This document shows, piece after piece, positions 25,474 through 35,936 of a DNA stretch of 64,000 nt (positions within the stretch are counted from its first letter, which is position 1; every line of letters begins with the position of its first letter). The position numbers and the translations under genes are program-made. Source of the DNA: Fluviicola sp. (GTDB lineage Bacteria > Bacteroidota > Bacteroidia > Flavobacteriales_D > Crocinitomicaceae); NCBI RefSeq assembly GCF_029266855.1, contig NZ_JAQSWB010000002.1:434001-498000 (forward strand), read 5' to 3'. Under the pieces are notes generated by a model. That model worked only from the letters and a program-made list of their open reading frames with translations. It was not told the origin of the DNA and ran no database searches.

Positions 25474-25523
25474 GGCCCCGTAGCTCAGTCCGCCGCGGCG
25501 GAAGCAACTGCCTAGGTTGTGAG
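25474..25523 (+). pseudogene. truncated tRNA-Arg-like sequence with palindromic D-loop
   Basis: Begins with acceptor GGCCCCG and TAGCTCAG, then the 14-bp palindrome TCCGCCGCGGCGGA (25489-25502) in place of a D-loop, then AGCAACTGCCT. The sequence then jumps to AGGTTGTGAG; the anticodon, the T-arm and the 3' acceptor arm are lost. Its acceptor arm would pair perfectly with the 3' arm of the copy at 25903-25982, suggesting they derive from one original gene. Confidence 0.8.
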
Positions 25524-25538
25524 TTAAAAAAGAAATTA

Positions 25539-25612
25539 GGCCCAATAGCTCAGCTGGATAGAGCAACTGCCTTCTAAGCAGTAGGTCTCAGGTTCGAATC
25601 CTGATTGGGTCA
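25539..25612 (+). tRNA. tRNA-Arg(TCT)
   Basis: 74-nt cloverleaf: acceptor arms GGCCCAA/TTGGGTC (one G-T), D-loop with normal GG in AGCTGGATAGA, anticodon stem ACTGC/GCAGT with loop CTTCTAA (anticodon TCT, codons AGA/AGG), T-arm TCAGG-TTCGAAT-CCTGA, discriminator A. This is the structurally intact Arg copy of the cluster. Confidence 0.95.
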
Positions 25613-25619
25613 CGAAAAA

Positions 25620-25666: not shown

Positions 25667-25912
25667 ATGCCATACTATTCATACGTACTTCGTTCATTAA
25701 AGAATGGGATCCTTTATAAAGGCTCAACTGAAAATCTTGAACAGCGCTTACAGTCGCATAATTCAGGGTTGGTGAATTTCACCTCAAAGCATGTGCCTTG
25801 GGAAATGGTGTTATTTGAAGAGTTTGAAACACGGTCAGAGGCAATGAAACGAGAGAAATGGTATAAGACTGGAGTCGGGCGAGATTGGATTAAGGAGCAA
25901 TTGGGCCCGTAG
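25667..25912 (+). CDS. small GIY-YIG nuclease family protein
   Basis: 81 residues forming one GIY-YIG domain: SYVLRS (GIY position), LYKGST (YIG position), the Arg of NLEQRLQSHN, then PWEMVLFEEF and the Glu-containing RSEAMKREKWYKTG. This is the UvrC/UPF0213-like single-domain type, frequent in Bacteroidota; the family cleaves DNA, but the substrate of small members is mostly unknown. The gene lies between an intact tRNA-Arg and a tRNA-Arg-like copy; its last codons and TAG stop lie inside the 5' acceptor/D-arm of that copy. The position suggests a mobile or tRNA-associated nuclease (inference). Confidence 0.88.
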   Translation: MPYYSYVLRSLKNGILYKGSTENLEQRLQSHNSGLVNFTSKHVPWEMVLFEEFETRSEAMKREKWYKTGVGRDWIKEQLGP

Positions 25913-25982
25913 CTCAGTCCGCCGCGGCGGAAGCAACTGCCTTCTAAGCAGTAGGTCTTTGGTTCGAATCCAAACGGGGTCA
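25903..25982 (+). tRNA. tRNA-Arg(TCT)-like gene with a palindrome replacing the D-loop
   Basis: Has anticodon stem/loop ACTGC-CTTCTAA-GCAGT (TCT), T-arm TTTGG-TTCGAAT-CCAAA and 3' acceptor CGGGGTC. Where the intact Arg copy has CTGGATAG, it has TCCGCCGCGGCGGA (25918-25931), so the D-loop GG needed for the elbow contact is missing and the RNA is 80 instead of 74 nt. The 5' arm GGGCCCG has one mismatch with the 3' arm. It may be non-functional, a processed variant or an intermediate of element insertion. A terminator follows directly. Confidence 0.7.
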
Positions 25983-25987
25983 CCAAG

Positions 25988-26017
25988 CGAGACATGCAAT
26001 TTACATGTCTCGTTTTT
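25988..26017 (+). terminator. intrinsic terminator after tRNA-Arg-like gene
   Basis: Perfect arms CGAGACATG and CATGTCTCG (25988-25996, 26004-26012) followed by TTTTT. Confidence 0.85.
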
Positions 26018-26080
26018 CTTTTATTCTGTACCAATTGATTTTATTAGTTTTTTGAATTAATTTTTGAACTAAACCTTTGT

Positions 26081-26123
26081 CATTACTACAAGTAATTATT
26101 CTTTTTTGGTTCGAATCTAGTTG
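26081..26123 (+). repeat. left boundary repeat of the TIR/HEPN island (tRNA T-arm-like)
   Basis: CATTAC, a short gap, then TATTCTTTT and GTTCGAATCTAGTTG. It matches 30658-30693 in the same orientation with a few substitutions and indels. The GTTCGAATC word is the T-loop sequence of the nearby tRNA-Arg. It could be an attachment-site remnant. The rest of 26018-26243 is AT-rich without a gene. Confidence 0.55.
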
Positions 26124-26243
26124 ACTGTTGGATTTTAATCTAAGAAAGACGAAAAGAAATGCCTATTTTGCATTATGTAATTCTAGTTCTTAAATAGAAC
26201 CATATTATTCGCTTTTATCGCAAAATAAATTTACTTCATACCA

Positions 26244-27203
26244 ATGTCTGACTATTATACTCCCGACCCAATTTGGTTGGATTTCAAAATAGAGAACCGG
26301 GAAGATTATGTAGATAAATATGTAATCAAAGGAAACTTCCATTCAAGTGTTCACGAAGACATAATCAAGAGTTTCAAAACCGTTGAATACTTAATGGCTC
26401 ACGCATATTACCATTGGGAACTTTACGATCAGGTTTTAGTAAAGCTGCTTTCCATCTTTGAAATGTCCGTCAAGTTGAGATCCAAAGAACTCAATAATCC
26501 ATTGCAATTTCAGACTAGAAATGGAAGAACACGGGACAAAAAGCTTGTCCAATTGATTGATGAATTAAAAAACTTCGGATATCCGGCCAATTTGATCCGA
26601 GATTTACAGTGGTTAAGAAAACTAAGAAATATAGAATCACATCCTGATGGTCATCATTTCGCTGGAGCAATGAAAAAGAGAGCTGTGATTCCAGGACTGA
26701 ATATGATTAACCGGCTTTTTATTGATCCCATTGTATTGACTTATCAAAACGAAAGCAACGAACAGTTATTGAAGAGTAAAAACACATTTACCGATGATGT
26801 GTTTATTCACTCGTTCAAAGGAAAAAATGTGTTGGTTCATGATCTCGAATTCTTGGCAAATATTGAACTGAAAGGTAATACATGTGAATATTGGAAAGCA
26901 AACCCAATATTGACCGATACATATGCTTCATTCAGCGAAATGAAATTCTCAAGTCCATTCATATTCTTCCTAACTGATGTCCAAATTGAAAACGGAAACT
27001 TAATAGCAACAGATTTCCAAACTAAAAAGCCTGTAATACTTCAAAGAACAAAAGTCGATGTAAACCTCCAGGCTTACCAGTTACACATAGACGCAATTGA
27101 AAAATTGGAACATACCCCAAAATTTGGCTTGGAATCTTCACATCGAAACTACCTGAACACTCATTTAGAAGAATTCACTTATATAAATTGTTGGACTAAT
27201 TGA
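26244..27203 (+). CDS. HEPN-like protein of the accessory island
   Basis: 319 residues, cytoplasmic, no known full-length family recognised. The N-terminal ~140 residues are helical and end in RNIESH (R128-x4-H133), the R-x4-6-H signature of HEPN ribonuclease domains, preceded by WLRKLRNIESHPD as in DUF4145-like HEPN proteins that assess non-infected versus infected cells in defence contexts (inference). The C-terminal half is beta-rich (IHSFKGKNVLVHDLEFL ... ILTDTYASF) and unassigned. It converges on the TIR operon with a single base between stop codons. The ATG at 26244 follows an AT-rich leader. Whether it belongs to the same system is inferred from the shared boundaries. Confidence 0.65.
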   Translation: MSDYYTPDPIWLDFKIENREDYVDKYVIKGNFHSSVHEDIIKSFKTVEYLMAHAYYHWELYDQVLVKLLSIFEMSVKLRSKELNNPLQFQTRNGRTRDKKLVQLIDELKNFGYPANLIRDLQWLRKLRNIESHPDGHHFAGAMKKRAVIPGLNMINRLFIDPIVLTYQNESNEQLLKSKNTFTDDVFIHSFKGKNVLVHDLEFLANIELKGNTCEYWKANPILTDTYASFSEMKFSSPFIFFLTDVQIENGNLIATDFQTKKPVILQRTKVDVNLQAYQLHIDAIEKLEHTPKFGLESSHRNYLNTHLEEFTYINCWTN

Positions 27204-27204
27204 T

Positions 27205-27738
27205 TTATGTGTTTCTTAACCAATTTTTTAGCCATATTACTGTCCCATCAGGATAAAATATAGCCCAATCGGTAACAGAATTGTCTTTACTATTAGCCTC
27301 CTTCACATAACCGTATATTCCAAAATATTCTTGCTCATTCCATGTCAGTGATGAATCTGTTAGGGGCAAAATAACTGTATTTTCATACCCATCAAATCCA
27401 TCTCCAAGCCCAAGTTCCCATGGAATCCATTTTGAATCCTTACTGTTTGGTGTAGCAAGAAGGATAAATTTGTCTGAAGACTTTATTTTTCTTCGAAGAA
27501 TACCTGCAGTTGAAGTACTTGGAGTATCTGGTAACTGATCGTCTAGATAATCAATATAAACTCTAACCCCTAAGGATTGGATAAGGTCAACAATTGGTTT
27601 TACCCACAATTTATCTTTTCTACGATATGAAAGAAATACTACTTTATCACTCGAAATGGAAAAACGCTTTGATTCATTAAGTACTTCAGATTTTTGAAAA
27701 GTTTGGCTACTTAATCTATTAAAAGTTAGATAACTCAT
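27205..27738 (-). CDS. TIR-domain protein (third TIR of the operon)
   Basis: 177 residues. After ~30 residues comes DKVVFLSYRRKDKLWVKPI, the first strand and BB-loop region of a TIR fold; then SSDKFILLATPNS and SKWIPWELGLGDG with Glu108 as the probable catalytic glutamate, as in NAD-cleaving bacterial TIRs. The C-terminal segment GTVIWLKNWL completes the domain, and there is no fused sensor. Last gene of the five-gene operon, 2 bp after the 140-residue TIR protein, and convergent with the HEPN-like gene. Predicted function: NAD-degrading effector or cyclic ADP-ribose-type signal synthase (inference from family). Confidence 0.85.
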   Translation of the reverse strand: MSYLTFNRLSSQTFQKSEVLNESKRFSISSDKVVFLSYRRKDKLWVKPIVDLIQSLGVRVYIDYLDDQLPDTPSTSTAGILRRKIKSSDKFILLATPNSKDSKWIPWELGLGDGFDGYENTVILPLTDSSLTWNEQEYFGIYGYVKEANSKDNSVTDWAIFYPDGTVIWLKNWLRNT

Positions 27739-27740
27739 AT

Positions 27741-28163
27741 CTATATTGAATATTTTCTTATTGCTTTAACTATTGAATTTGTATTCCAATTTACCATTTC
27801 AATTGCATTTTCCCTGACAATAGAAGAAACACGCTGCTGCCCCCAAGGAATTATTCCAATTATTGGTTTGTTATATTTAAGAGCTAGCTTAAGTTCTCGC
27901 TTAATCCATTCACTATGAGTTGCATAAATTCCAGACATTATTAGGATACAATTCACTGGACGAATTTGTTTTTCTAATTCATTTGTTAAATGTCCAATAC
28001 TTACTTCACTGTTTGGATCTACTTTAGGTCTATGTATTGGAACACTGTAATCCCTAAAGTAGAAATATGGAGCCTCTCTAAGTAAATTTTCCAATCGGTA
28101 GTAATGATCATTATACCTCCATGCGTGGCTTAAAAAAAGATCATATGTTTTTAACTTAGGCAT
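27741..28163 (-). CDS. short TIR-fold protein, DUF1863/ThsB-like
   Basis: 140 residues, essentially one domain. It begins KTYDLFLSHAWRYNDHY, continues with LREAPYFYFRDYSVP and CILIMSGIYATHSEWIKREL (Glu90 in the position of the TIR catalytic glutamate) and ends in KPIIGIIPWGQQR. This is the pattern of the TIR-like DUF1863 family to which the Thoeris signal synthase ThsB belongs. It is one base downstream of the NDT/TPR gene and 2 bp upstream of the next TIR, so the three are surely cotranscribed. Probable role: infection-triggered nucleotide signal synthase or effector. Confidence 0.85.
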   Translation of the reverse strand: MPKLKTYDLFLSHAWRYNDHYYRLENLLREAPYFYFRDYSVPIHRPKVDPNSEVSIGHLTNELEKQIRPVNCILIMSGIYATHSEWIKRELKLALKYNKPIIGIIPWGQQRVSSIVRENAIEMVNWNTNSIVKAIRKYSI

Positions 28164-28164
28164 A

Positions 28165-29394
28165 TTAGCTAGTTTTTGTTTTTATGATTAGGTCCTTTGT
28201 TTTATTGAATGTTTCTAATTCCCATTCTACTGAAGTTAATTCCGTAAATAACTTTTCATATTGTGAAGCAGTTTCTTCCTGATCCAACAGTAGACTACAA
28301 TTGGAGTAACTTGCATAAATCCATTTCAAATCGTTTCGCCATTCATAATCACCCTCGTTAAATACATCATTCAAATGGTCAATAATTTCTGAGCATGTCC
28401 TTTTGGCTTCTACCTTATAATAAATTTTATCTTCAAGATTTTCATCTATACCAGATAACAATAACAGGCATAAAGCATAGTTCTCACCAGTATAGTAATC
28501 TGTATTTACTGTGAATCCTTTTTTATAATACTTGAGTGCGCTTAAAAGAGATTCTTTATCCTGGGTGCTTTCCCATAATCTTTTATAAATTGCGCCAGTA
28601 ATTCCCAATGTTTCAGGATCGTTAGTTTCATCTGGATTATTGCTTTGAATGATTGTTAAAGCTTCAGTCAAAGCAGAAATTTTTGACGGGGATTCGCTTT
28701 TGTAAACTGACAAAGCAAACTGTTGAGTGAAGTATGTTTCGTTAGGAACCATTTTTTGAGCTCGTTCCCATAATTTTCGTGCTTCAATAAAATTACTTTT
28801 GTTCATTTCCGCACGTGCATGTTCAACAAGAGTATAGATACTATCTCCTTTTTCTGTAAGTTCTTTAATAATTTCAATGTATTCCTCCTCATTTAAATTG
28901 TGAGGAGATAGAGTTTGAATGAATTCAAATAAAGGACTGTCTGTTTCTTTTGCTTTGGAAACTGTTTCAATTAATTGTTTTAAATCTCTAACACAACGAT
29001 CAGCTTCACTTTTTCCAATATCATCTCCTAAATGTTTATAATGGAAAATTTTGCTATGACTTAAATCAAATGGTAACTTGCCCTCATCTTCTTTAATAAT
29101 TATAGTTGAATAAGGTTTTGCAGCATGTCTGATTCCTAATTCATAGATCGCATTTGGATTATATGTTGATATATCTGCAATGACTAGATCGGCATAAACA
29201 AGCATAGTGTACATACTTTTATCAATCAATCCACTTTCAATAATTTCATCACCTCTTACACATTGATAACCTGCTGCCGAGGCAGCAGGTTTAATGACAT
29301 TTAAATAAGTCTTATCAAGATCAAATGTCTTTCCTGTTTCCAGATCGGATTTCTTTCCGTATCCCATTATAACAAAACAAATTGGTTTTTTCAT
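28165..29394 (-). CDS. nucleoside-deoxyribosyltransferase-like/TPR protein (DUF4071 type)
   Basis: 409 residues. The N-terminal ~110 residues read ICFVIMGYGKKSDL, GKTFDLDKTYLNVIKPA, ADLVIADISTYNPNAIYELG (Glu85), a fold related to nucleoside 2-deoxyribosyltransferases and to TIR-like glycosidases. The C-terminal ~250 residues are helical TPR-like repeats (EARKLWERAQKMVPN, ALKYYKKGFTVN), resembling the TRAFs-binding DUF4071 family. A plausible role is sensing through the repeats and base-glycoside chemistry in the N-domain (inference). It is in the middle of the TIR operon, 18 bp after the first TIR gene and one base before the second. Confidence 0.8.
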   Translation of the reverse strand: MKKPICFVIMGYGKKSDLETGKTFDLDKTYLNVIKPAASAAGYQCVRGDEIIESGLIDKSMYTMLVYADLVIADISTYNPNAIYELGIRHAAKPYSTIIIKEDEGKLPFDLSHSKIFHYKHLGDDIGKSEADRCVRDLKQLIETVSKAKETDSPLFEFIQTLSPHNLNEEEYIEIIKELTEKGDSIYTLVEHARAEMNKSNFIEARKLWERAQKMVPNETYFTQQFALSVYKSESPSKISALTEALTIIQSNNPDETNDPETLGITGAIYKRLWESTQDKESLLSALKYYKKGFTVNTDYYTGENYALCLLLLSGIDENLEDKIYYKVEAKRTCSEIIDHLNDVFNEGDYEWRNDLKWIYASYSNCSLLLDQEETASQYEKLFTELTSVEWELETFNKTKDLIIKTKTS

Positions 29395-29412
29395 CGTCGA
29401 ATATTTTTAGAG

Positions 29413-29997
29413 TTATTTTGGATACACGGTTACTTTTTGTCTAACGTCCGCAAATCGTTTTTCAAAAGCTAAGTCAATATATTTGTTTGGGTCTTCAATA
29501 AAATCTTCCCATTTTACTAAAACGCAATATCTTTCATCTTCCGACCAATGACATTTCCCAATTTCTGGAATATAATAGTTACGACTAAACTCTTTAACAA
29601 CTGTTTGATCATTAATAAATACAGAACCACAAGTAATTCCACAAGAGCAAGTGTAGGTTCCTTTATATATTGCATTATAGGATTCCGGCAAAACGACTCC
29701 AAGAATACCATTTCTGGTATTATCTGCCCCATGATATAATGATGCTTGCAATTCACGTTTGATATATCTTTGTTCATATCCCACGTTTTCTGAACTACGA
29801 CTACCAATTAGGTGAATAGTAACGGTGGAATCTGAAAGGTGGTTTTTGCGAATTTTTCGCATTATATAATCCTCATCTTCTGAATCAATTGCATCATTCA
29901 GTGATTTGTCAATTATATCAATTTCAGGATGATTCTGAATAGATTCTTTGTACTTATAATCTTCAGTTTTGAATGAAATAAAACACTTATGCCCCAT
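29413..29997 (-). CDS. ThsB-like TIR-domain protein (DUF1863)
   Basis: 194 residues. N-terminus HKCFISFKTEDYKYKESI, then IIDKSLNDAIDSEDEDYIMR, LSDSTVTIHLIGSRSSEN and YIKRELQASLYHG with Glu82 as likely catalytic residue; a Cys-containing loop (CSCGITCG) follows, and the C-terminus is VLVKWEDFIEDPNKYIDLAF. This is close to the common ThsB-like TIR proteins that make an NAD-derived signal in Thoeris or act as stand-alone effectors. It is the second gene of the operon, 3 bp after the DUF2188 gene. Three TIR-fold proteins in one operon is exceptional. Confidence 0.88.
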   Translation of the reverse strand: MGHKCFISFKTEDYKYKESIQNHPEIDIIDKSLNDAIDSEDEDYIMRKIRKNHLSDSTVTIHLIGSRSSENVGYEQRYIKRELQASLYHGADNTRNGILGVVLPESYNAIYKGTYTCSCGITCGSVFINDQTVVKEFSRNYYIPEIGKCHWSEDERYCVLVKWEDFIEDPNKYIDLAFEKRFADVRQKVTVYPK

Positions 29998-30000
29998 GAT

Positions 30001-30228
30001 CTATCCTTTAATATTTTTAGGGTCATTTCCATACGAATTTTTCTCGCGAATTTTTCCATCTTTCCCGTGGATTAAAACTTCAGATTTTTGATTTGTTGCT
30101 ATCTTTTTAGCAATAGTATCCGCTTCTTTTTGTGTTTTAGTTATCACAGTAGCTTTGCTGTTTCCAGCACCTTTCACCTGCCATCCGTCCGGATGAGGTG
30201 TTACATGTTGATTTTTCCCTTTCGACAT
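30001..30228 (-). CDS. DUF2188 small protein, first gene of the TIR operon
   Basis: From ATG 30228 the product has 75 residues: MSKGKNQHVTPHPDGWQVKG, TKTQKEADTIAKKIATN and SEVLIHGKDGKIREKNSYG. This is the DUF2188 pattern (short basic protein with two similar beta-hairpin halves). An ATG 51 bp upstream in the same frame (30279) would add 17 residues that do not fit the family, so 30228 is chosen. The protein often appears beside TIR and mobile-element genes, with no known activity; here it could be an accessory or DNA-binding partner (inference). The stop lies 3 bp before the next start. Confidence 0.8.
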   Translation of the reverse strand: MSKGKNQHVTPHPDGWQVKGAGNSKATVITKTQKEADTIAKKIATNQKSEVLIHGKDGKIREKNSYGNDPKNIKG

Positions 30229-30414
30229 TTGTTCGAATTTTGAGATTTGTAATACATGCCAACTCTCGTAATGACACACGAACCTGAAGGGAGAAATTGA
30301 TTAATTACATTTTGATAGTAGTAGTAGTTCTAAAAAACTATGTACTTTCGTACCTGTCAAAACTGATTGTTAGTGAATCTTTGGTCGGTGACACTTCCAG
30401 TCAGGCAAAAAATC

Positions 30415-30441
30415 AACAGCTCTCTTCAGGGCTGTTTTTTT
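30415..30441 (+). terminator. intrinsic terminator without an obvious gene
   Basis: Arms AACAGCTCT and AGGGCTGTT (one T-G pair) around CTTC, followed by seven T. It is on the plus strand, divergent from the TIR operon, with a TACTTTCG box ~70 bp upstream (30343-30350). This could end a short RNA of ~90 nt (30355-30441). Confidence 0.6.
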
Positions 30442-30622
30442 GTGTTTTGAATTTAGTCAACTTGTATGCCAAGGCACCCAAACTGCCAAAAAGACATAAA
30501 TTTTAACATAATAGATTGCTTCTATGACAGTATTATGACATTTTTGTCACTTTTTATGATAATAAATGTCATAACGGGACGCTAAATAAATTGATTTTTT
30601 CCTTAGTGATTATTACAGCTTC

Positions 30623-30681
30623 AACACAAAAGAATAAAATCTAATAGCTCTTTTCGACATTACATTTTATTCTTTTGTGTT
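30623..30681. repeat. 18-bp perfect inverted repeat
   Basis: Arms AACACAAAAGAATAAAAT (30623-30640) and its exact complement (30664-30681) separated by 23 nt. The right arm leads directly into the T-arm-like word GTTCGACTCTAGTTG. It overlaps the right boundary repeat and has no T-run, so it is not a typical terminator. Confidence 0.85.
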
Positions 30682-30693
30682 CGACTCTAGTTG
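30658..30693 (+). repeat. right boundary repeat of the TIR/HEPN island (tRNA T-arm-like)
   Basis: CATTACATTTTATTCTTTTG followed by TGTTCGACTCTAGTTG; partner of 26081-26123. It is followed by GCGGTAGGGTCAC, whose GGGTCAC end equals the 3' end of the intact tRNA-Arg(TCT). Confidence 0.55.
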
Positions 30694-30704
30694 CGGTAGG
30701 GTCA

Positions 30705-30748
30705 CAAAAAGAAAAAAGCATCGCGAGAGTGATGCTTTTTTCTTTTTG
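30705..30748. terminator. strong bidirectional hairpin terminator
   Basis: Arms CAAAAAGAAAAAAGCATC and its exact complement (30731-30748) around GCGAGAGT. The A-run and T-run flank the GC core on both sides, so it can stop transcription in either direction. Confidence 0.8.
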
Positions 30749-30790
30749 TCCCTCTTTGCTCACACTCCACACTCACACTGATTAGATGCT

Positions 30791-30984
30791 TTTTTCTTTT
30801 CAGTATTGAGTGTGAGGACTGAGTGTGGGATTCGTGTTCGAAGCTTGAATTCTATTTCCCCCTTCGGAGGGGGACCGAGGGGGAGGACAGGCCTAATCTC
30901 CCGCAAACCATTGATTTTATTGTGCTTCCTTATCGGATCAAAGTCGTTCGAATCTAATTGGGTTTTCAGGTGAAATTTCTATTC
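30791..30984 (+). repeat. long diverged direct repeat, copy 1
   Basis: Shares with 32441-32662 the words ATTGAGTGTGAGGA, GTGTTCGAAG, CCGCAA, TTGATTTTA and a final TTCGAA followed by ATTGG. The central part differs (here CCCCCTTCGGAGGGGGACC, a small hairpin). Together with 30749-30790 (inverted CACACTC words) it fills the gap to the terminator at 31043; no gene is seen. Confidence 0.7.
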
Positions 30985-32440: not shown

Positions 32441-32662
32441 TTTTTCTTTTTTCAGCATTGAGTGTGAGGAATGAGAGCGGGATCGGTGTTCGAAGATTCA
32501 ATTCGGTTTCCCTGACGTCCCGATAGTTATTGGGACTGACGCTTATCAGACTCTGTCAGAGGGAGGATAAGCCAAATCTTCCGCAAGCCTTTGATTTTAG
32601 TGTGTTTTTCTGTCAAATCAAAGCGGTTCGAACCCTATTGGCTTTTGGGTAAAATTTTCTTC
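32441..32662 (+). repeat. long diverged direct repeat, copy 2
   Basis: Partner of 30791-30984 (see there). Its centre has GTCCCGATAGTTATTGGGAC, an inverted repeat, instead of the CCCCCTTCGGAGGGGG hairpin. It ends with GGTTCGAACCC, again a tRNA T-arm-like word. Confidence 0.7.
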
Positions 32663-35699: not shown

Positions 35700-35936
35700 A
35701 TGCAATACGTTTACCTACTCAAATGCTCTGATGGAACAACTTATACAGGTTGCACTCAAAATATCGAAGAACGATTAAAAAGACATAATAAAGGCGAGAT
35801 CCATTATACTTCAACCCGGCTTCCACTAGAACTAATCACTTATATCGCATTCACTGATAAATACAAAGCATTTCATTTTGAGAAATATTTAAAATCTGGT
35901 TCTGGAAAGGCATTTTTGAATAAGCGTTTTTTATGA
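35700..35936 (+). CDS. small GIY-YIG nuclease family protein
   Basis: 78 residues, single domain: QYVYLLKCSDGTTYTG (GIY-YIG region VYLL/YTG), the Arg/His helix ERLKRHNKGE, PLELITYIAF, and FHFEKYLKSGSGKAFLNK with the expected Glu. It is about as similar to the GIY-YIG protein at 25667 as such domains usually are, not a recent copy. The gene again stands next to a tRNA (tRNA-Ala, 312 bp upstream), here separated by the 71-bp repeats. DNA cleavage is inferred from the family; substrate unknown. Confidence 0.85.
   Translation: MQYVYLLKCSDGTTYTGCTQNIEERLKRHNKGEIHYTSTRLPLELITYIAFTDKYKAFHFEKYLKSGSGKAFLNKRFL

Follow-up and report, generated by a model that had tools for sequence, protein, structure and literature searches.

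Thoeris operons that combine a sensor TIR protein, ThsB1, with a catalytic one, ThsB2, are established, and in the S. aureus system the capsid protein is bound by ThsB1, which brings in the catalytic ThsB2 (F6/E81), according to the account of this system in PMC12578639. TIR proteins are also known together with SLATT proteins in Firmicutes phages, SLATT being predicted, where PMC9503650 treats it, to be a membrane effector regulated by ADP-ribose (ADPr) derivatives. Here we analyse a six-gene cluster in a 64,000-nucleotide stretch of the Fluviicola sp. genome GCF_029266855.1 (contig NZ_JAQSWB010000002.1, positions 434,001 to 498,000; hereafter the window), in which genes for three TIR proteins (TIR194, TIR140 and TIR177) accompany a single gene for a 409-residue protein, TPR409. 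We propose, with a probability of about 0.58, that the cluster encodes a Thoeris-like anti-phage system in which one receptor-effector, TPR409, is served by several TIR inputs.

TPR409 is predicted to be both messenger receptor and effector, the hub of the operon. It consists of a head that resembles DNPH1 and nucleoside deoxyribosyltransferases (NDTs; residues about 1-125, with Glu85 in a YELG motif) and a TPR-S/ASK1-like sensor (residues about 165-409). The protein matches Pfam TPR-S (PF20308) at 1.4e-23, with 83.9 bits against a cut-off of 27.6, and MAP3K_TRAF_bd at 2e-10; via its head domain it also matches the PADLOC model ‘Effector, TIR’ (PDLC00733, 3e-9), as do all 18 members of the full-length alignment. 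Glu85 is invariant in the 18 rows of that alignment, and both Glu85 and Phe7 are invariant in a separate 24-row alignment of heads. A profile built from these 24 head sequences matches DNPH1/Rcl structures at 1e-4 and a nucleoside deoxyribosyltransferase at 0.066; in the printed DNPH1/Rcl matches the Glu of YELG is aligned. The NDT-like/TPR label that the original prediction, made from the window alone, had given to this protein is thus upheld, for the head by profile and for TPR-S by Pfam. In the AlphaFold2 model (10 sequences, pLDDT 82.7) the head, an alpha/beta domain, is modelled less confidently (block means 47-90) than the long TPR solenoid that follows it, with block means of 81-97 from residue 191.

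The head has the nucleophile Glu of DNPH1/nucleoside 2-deoxyribosyltransferase enzymes and lacks their catalytic-acid Asp: at the position aligned with a variable Rcl residue (D/A/N among the Rcl chains) it carries Met, Val or Ile in all 24 sequences. We take that Rcl position to be the catalytic acid Asp of DNPH1, as its D/A/N variation among the Rcl chains supports. The nicotinamide of NAD+ needs no protonation, and a hydrophobic residue at the acid position would therefore suit NAD+ as the substrate. With the architecture unchanged, the head could instead be a DNPH1-like N-glycosidase that depletes (deoxy)nucleotides and not NAD+, since its best solved relatives are DNPH1/Rcl and 5 of the 24 head members match Nuc_deoxyrib_tr (two match TIR_2 weakly, best 0.0042); the uniformly hydrophobic acid position speaks against this alternative, to which we give a low probability. 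The head was also considered as a TIR domain and rejected as such, because profile comparison with the TIR140 and TIR194 families, the two that were compared, gave a probability of 0.2-0.3%; in the same comparison these two families match each other. As there is no profile similarity to the ThsB-type TIRs, we name the head NDT/DNPH1-like and regard any TIR kinship as fold-level at most. In E. coli ThsB2, NDTs and DNPH1 a Tyr is hydrogen-bonded to the catalytic Glu, and Phe or Ala is usual at that Tyr position in NADase TIRs, as outlined in PMC11204291.

TPR409 and its TIR neighbours form a gene core known from three bacterial phyla or more (L- and G-numbers below are our labels for loci and genomes). 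A scan of a genome collection returned seven TPR409 loci, six of them distinct (L005 equals L006 in coordinates and scores), from Prevotellaceae, Prevotella, Alistipes, Bacteroidales (two), Phocaeicola and ‘bacterium P3’. In all six the order TIR194-TPR409-TIR140 is the same, so the homologues are not merely scattered, as a neighbourhood check suggested with the original prediction might have found; TIR177 is also present upstream in three, and type I restriction genes lie near every one (HsdS in L003, L004 and L007; HsdR in L003, L005, L008 and L009). On plasmids, tblastn found 73 records with TPR409 relatives, and in 42 the match spans 80% of the query or more. We opened 18 of the plasmid TPR neighbourhoods. 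Profiles or annotation place a TIR no more than 3 kb away in 15 of them, the exceptions being L101, L105 and L106, and seven have a SLATT/DUF4231 gene in the same region. The neighbourhoods bearing a TIR come from Pseudomonas, Vibrio, Acinetobacter, Klebsiella, E. coli, Rhizobiaceae, Pediococcus and Lacticaseibacillus. Closer to home, 14 of 200 genomes of the same family match the TPR409 profile, at full length only the Fluviicola genome itself and G489, where TPR409 and TIR140 stand alone in a different setting; among 395 sampled genomes of the phylum, TPR409 is matched in 61, in many cases over the head alone, and TIR194 in 17, of which five give strong matches. Annotated phage records with a TPR409 match number 39, none of them covering more than 80% of the protein, and the matches listed extend at most over residues 1-216.

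For a count across all sources we took TPR409 open reading frames (ORFs) of more than 350 aa with E < 1e-100 to the profile of alignment A1, plus the window locus and L154, which gave 28 distinct loci. Dropped as copies were L006, the window copies L010 and L081, and the short copies L011-L016 and L080, which cover places already counted as L109-L114, and, because their gene order was that of L043, L044, L044, L045 and L041, respectively, L097-L100 and L108. Loci that fell short of the threshold were left uncounted; among them are L017-L039, L106, which has no TIR within 3 kb, L107, which does have TIRs within that distance, and L048, a fragment of 165 aa. A TIR lies within 3 kb of TPR409 in 23 of the 28 loci, 21 by profiles and two (L043 and L104) by annotation, the L043 TIR being matched by Pfam as well. 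TIR140 is the commonest such neighbour by best profile (16/28). Each locus has a single full-length TPR gene, usually with one to three TIR genes within 3 kb and with four in L110, down to minimal pairs of TPR and TIR140 in L040, L109 and L154. The core is thus TPR plus TIR, and the number of TIRs varies.

TIR194 is also found with another partner. Scanning viral contigs with its alignment, A2, we obtained eight TIR194 loci with relatives of 56-66% identity; L046 has TPR409, and the other seven have an adjoining gene for a SLATT protein with two transmembrane segments (2TM), four of these genes having been tested by Pfam (one as a shortened 103-aa ORF) and the rest judged from sequence. In three genomes (L118-L120) TIR194 lies within 0.6 kb of SLATT, and L110 combines both partners in the run TIR177-TPR409-TIR140-TIR194-SLATT-TIR177-like. 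Two SLATT proteins were compared with PADLOC: that of L073 matches an Effector model (PDLC00725, 4TM) at 1e-5 and that of L110 has no match. We infer that the viral TIR194 and SLATT loci are the same modules as those treated in PMC9503650.

The variable number of TIRs around a single TPR gene, the occurrence of TIR194 beside SLATT and the PADLOC ‘Effector’ matches, which cover all tested TPR409 members and one of the two SLATT proteins, lead us to favour the receptor-effector role for TPR409. Signalling could also run in the reverse direction, with TPR409 sensing the phage through its TPR scaffold, the head serving as a nucleotide sensor, and the TIRs acting as effectors that destroy NAD+. TPR repeats often bind proteins and the Glu is kept in all three TIRs, both of which count for such a scheme, and the roles of TIRs in conflict systems include those of effector, signal maker and sensor, as surveyed in PMC9503650. 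However, TIR194 is found with SLATT membrane proteins too, which look effector-like, the number of TIRs varies while the TPR gene is single, and the head retains an invariant catalytic-type Glu, so that we consider the reverse direction unlikely.

All three TIR proteins match PADLOC ThsB models. TIR194, predicted to be the messenger-making enzyme, matches ThsB_TIR (PF08937) at 1e-9; its best solved relative, at 9e-10, is the ‘putative cyclic ADP-D-ribose synthase TIR1’ of PDB 9vyl, identity across the rows of A2 is 60-65%, and its F6/E82 pair is similar by position to F6/E81 of S. aureus ThsB2. The short TIR140 matches ThsB_TIR (PF08937) at 4e-14 and, among solved structures, the TIR 8fz9 (6e-8) and ThsB1 9b7d (8e-5), with 6lhy also among the matches. 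TIR177, an optional additional TIR, matches TIR_2 (PF13676) at 2.5e-11 and PADLOC ThsB PDLC00436 at 4.9e-48, its best solved relative being 8btn_B, ‘TIR domain-containing protein’ (5e-43). Glu82 of TIR194 (8/8 rows), Glu90 of TIR140 (14/14) and Glu108 of TIR177 (7/7) are invariant, so that, together with Glu85 of TPR409, each of the four Glu residues picked out in the original prediction is fixed in its own alignment; its count of three TIR-fold proteins is likewise correct by Pfam (TIR_2 once, ThsB_TIR twice), the head of the 409-residue protein not being among them. As a separate observation, Cys117, Cys119 and Cys149 of TIR194 are invariant in all eight rows and may form a metal site outside the TIR core. 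Profile scans of the whole 4.3 Mb genome found TIR_2 in two places, one of them below the cut-off, and ThsB_TIR in one; the ThsB_TIR scan missed the 194-aa gene, so these are under-counts. Three TIR genes inside 2.8 kb, against so few genome-wide, are not there by chance.

With TIRs of this kind, an ordinary type I or II Thoeris with its ThsA elsewhere in the genome has to be considered. The statement that ThsA is absent holds for the cluster, where neither a SIR2-SLOG nor a TM-macro domain occurs among the six proteins, and plain Thoeris is rejected on gene content, no ThsA having been found. In the 4.3 Mb genome STALD (SIR2-TIR-associated SLOG) has no match, an argument that is weak because control genomes are silent too. 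Since, moreover, TPR409 fills the partner slot in many unrelated genomes, we judge ordinary Thoeris to be highly improbable despite the three ThsB matches. Thoeris type III was rejected as well: the only match to a type III component, that of the NCBIfam model ThcB4 to TIR177, reaches 17.8 bits against a cut-off of 220.

For the messenger, the sensing step, the direction of signalling, the substrate and the anti-phage function we propose the following. Infection would activate one or more of the TIRs, which would convert NAD+ into an ADP-ribose-type messenger; that the TIRs make a messenger is suggested by the name of 9vyl, the relative of TIR194, and by the presence of ThsB1 among the relatives of TIR140. 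Extra TIRs may widen the range of triggers or form sensor/catalyst pairs. The TPR-S half would bind the messenger, upon which the DNPH1/NDT-like head would be released or assembled, and Glu85 would attack the N-glycosidic bond of NAD+, which we favour, or of a nucleotide, ending the cell's support of the phage. The type I restriction neighbours, the plasmid copies and the island at a tRNA site described below give a defence and mobile context that would fit such a role.

Several observations weigh against this scheme. The head of TPR409 taken alone matches no Pfam family, and it is close to deoxynucleotide hydrolases, so that its substrate may not be NAD+. Phe6 of TIR194 is replaced by Tyr in two of the eight rows. 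No TIR lies within 3 kb in five of the 28 loci (L101, with IS26 directly downstream; L105; L111; L112, with only 1.4 kb covered on one side; and L113), so that TPR409 proteins more remote from this one may act without TIRs and do something else. TIR140 was undetected in L041, L046 and L102, which have other TIRs. Finally, 19 TIR194 sequences gave a tree of poor resolution, and the best tree needs four changes of partner; a single change is compatible with the well-supported branches, yet is found in none of 200 bootstrap trees with either label.

The coordinates of the six genes and of the island that contains them are given in Table 1.

Table 1. Genes of the cluster and limits of the surrounding island, as positions in the window
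Feature	Position	Strand	Description
HEPN319	26244-27203	+	319 aa ORF
TIR177	27205-27738	-	177 aa ORF
TIR140	27741-28163	-	140 aa ORF
TPR409	28165-29394	-	409 aa ORF
TIR194	29413-29997	-	194 aa ORF
DUF2188 gene	30001-30228	-	75 aa from ATG
Low-GC island	25986-30786	.	blastn synteny limits vs same-genus G404

Read from the promoter side, the minus-strand operon runs DUF2188, TIR194, TPR409, TIR140, TIR177, with gaps of 3, 18, 1 and 2 bp in that order; HEPN319 converges on it with 1 bp between the stops. These positions and gaps are as first reported and agree with the ORF list. The suggestion that all six genes form one system was not supported, because HEPN319 is convergent and both it and DUF2188 lie outside the conserved core; they were rejected as core parts on that ground. 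What stands of the proposed multi-TIR anti-phage system is a multi-TIR group without ThsA, in a conserved neighbourhood and a defence context, and what finds no support is its six-gene unity. HEPN319 has no match in Pfam, NCBIfam or PADLOC. The motif on which its HEPN-like label was based (R128-x4-H133) is invariant, with P134, in 7/7 rows, and family profiles support the label weakly (HEPN_Apea 0.0032 in one of the seven rows; DUF4145 best 0.023, four rows). Its single-sequence model, at pLDDT 36, is useless. Homologues were found in 7 of 296 genomes, its own included, and on one Hymenobacter plasmid, with no TIR in the short flanks examined (mostly 1.5 kb each side), and no relatives were found in viral contigs; HEPN319 is probably separate cargo of the island. 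The DUF2188 label is confirmed (PF09954, 1.8e-22), with a further match to PADLOC PDC-S16 at 1e-34 in which positions 1-75 of 75 align to residues 18-92 of a longer GTG form, pointing to the 75-aa ATG form. By single-sequence phmmer it was matched only in a window-derived locus and in none of the others compared, and it is a local accessory.

The exclusion of these two genes, together with the fact that TIR194 and the pair of TPR and TIR140 are each found without the other, is also what could be expected if independent systems, each of one or two genes, had gathered at the same hotspot in a defence island. The fixed TIR194-TPR-TIR140 order in the six genome-collection loci and the TIRs close to the TPR gene in most of the opened plasmid neighbourhoods argue against such a collection, and we think it quite improbable.

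The cluster lies in a low-GC island (GC 0.325-0.33 against about 0.41 around it) that is missing from the same-genus genome G404 at a tRNA-flanked site. It begins just past a tRNA cluster: by blastn, synteny with G404 breaks off where the last tRNA-like copy ends and picks up again at the far limit of the island, about 134 bp later in G404. By tblastn, none of the six island proteins has a match in the three same-genus regions examined. G404 has a different insert next door, including a DUF4132/DUF7737 protein. A search for att-type repeats at the island ends gave nothing convincing, and predicted promoters and terminators are near shuffle counts (25 vs 22.1 and 3 vs 2.7, respectively). Around the site, a tRNA-Arg(tct) gene at 25539-25613 has partial and near-full duplicates at 25474-25513 and 25903-25985, the latter called tRNA-Ser(act) by ARAGORN and ‘tRNA-???’ at the matching place in G404; these are probably decayed copies at an insertion hotspot. 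Small GIY-YIG-type ORFs at 25667-25912 (confirmed by Pfam) and 35700-35936 (judged from sequence) each lie near tRNA genes. A repeated element occurs at 30790-30846 and 32442-32498 (84% alike), and the stretch 30786-30966 is also matched in G404, beside that genome's own insert.

Some TPR409-like genes have other neighbours. In L111 and L112 (genomes G076 and G194), the latter near a contig end, a TPR409-like gene without nearby TIR has the same two genes on one side and is possibly a domesticated version. A patatin phospholipase gene adjoins the TPR409-like gene in L104 and L113, which suggests another effector or partner. In L018-L023, from six genomes of one family, a gene of about 445-470 aa with a weak match to the TPR409 profile precedes the TPR409-like gene. 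Beside the TPR/TIR genes of L043, L097 and L107 stand genes for 7-cyano-7-deazaguanine-synthase-like, DNA glycosylase/lyase-like, TIR and PfkB/carbohydrate kinase proteins, the TIR protein of L043 having a short queuine tRNA-ribosyltransferase (TGT) Pfam match; a similar run in L049 was judged by eye. Runs of the L043 type may be a deazaguanine- and TIR-linked conflict system.

The TPR half of TPR409 is homologous to that in the N-terminal half of human ASK1 (MAP3K5), which it matches among solved structures with a profile E of 3e-6 (alignment A1) or 9e-9 (the broader A8). The top Foldseek match of the TPR409 model is ASK1 8qgy (E 2.7e-7, 444 columns, TM 0.40, rmsd 21 A), and the central region of ASK1 (5ulm) fits at 4.1 A over 223 columns; Lys271, Gly303 and Asn305 are retained between the two proteins in the printed alignment. 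In the ASK1 stretch collinear with the head, YHLGVR stands where the bacterial consensus is YELGVR (2.1-2.4 bits, not significant alone). ASK1 differs in being a kinase without TIRs and in the His of this stretch, which takes the place of the bacterial catalytic-type Glu. Its thioredoxin-binding domain is described as thioredoxin-fold-like in the structural account of PMC10972558. A bolder and doubtful reading is that an NADase head on a TPR-S sensor defines a distinct class of TIR signalling that is also ancestral to the N-terminal regulatory half of animal ASK proteins. The thioredoxin-binding domain would then be a DNPH1/TIR-like enzyme that has lost its activity (Glu to His), and the TPR region an old messenger pocket. 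This origin is made less likely by the absence of ASK1 among the 14 matches of the head-only profile at E up to 10. If it is true, ASK1 is a domesticated bacterial receptor of TIR signals that might still bind nucleotide.

If our proposal is right, TIR immunity would gain a further type of receptor-effector, and the locus would suggest that one TIR family can drive different effectors, a SLATT pore or a TPR-S enzyme. It would also offer a bacterial system for asking what the original signal of the ASK1 regulatory half was. The small plasmid or two-gene versions (L040, L154) make the system directly testable.

The combination of genes had not been recognised when first noticed, which is only partly right. 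The TPR-S theme belongs to comparative genomics: Burroughs and Aravind reportedly predicted in 2020 (J. Bacteriol.) that TPR-S is a sensor of NAD+-derived signals and linked it to ASK signalosomes. The features of such systems are found here, namely TPR-S above the Pfam cut-off, an effector-type head and adjacent TIRs; a literature search of partial coverage (titles and the starts of abstracts) recognised no experimental study of a system combining TPR-S/TRAFs-binding and TIR proteins. With Thoeris the locus shares TIRs of the ThsB_TIR/PADLOC ThsB kind, several TIRs per operon, one partner and the catalytic-type Glu, but the partner there is ThsA, whereas a DNPH1/NDT-like head joined to TPR-S would be a different receptor-effector. 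The head is also like the effector PDLC00733, which we take to belong to CBASS, but the sensor here is TPR-S, and there is no CD-NTase among the six proteins. The TIR-SLATT modules, whose earlier description is the other part of the combination already on record, resemble the locus in that TIR194 relatives next to SLATT genes turned up here in viral contigs, and differ in having a 2TM SLATT membrane protein in place of TPR409 (PMC9503650, in its treatment of these modules). None of the six proteins is SLATT/DUF4231, and the genome has no DUF4231 match, control genomes being silent as well. By gene content, the locus is therefore not Thoeris, TIR-SLATT or CBASS and fits the TPR-S theme; judged by its sequences, it would be a TIR-messenger defence with an uncharacterised receptor-effector, and the whole is probably a mobile anti-virus alarm-and-shutdown system.

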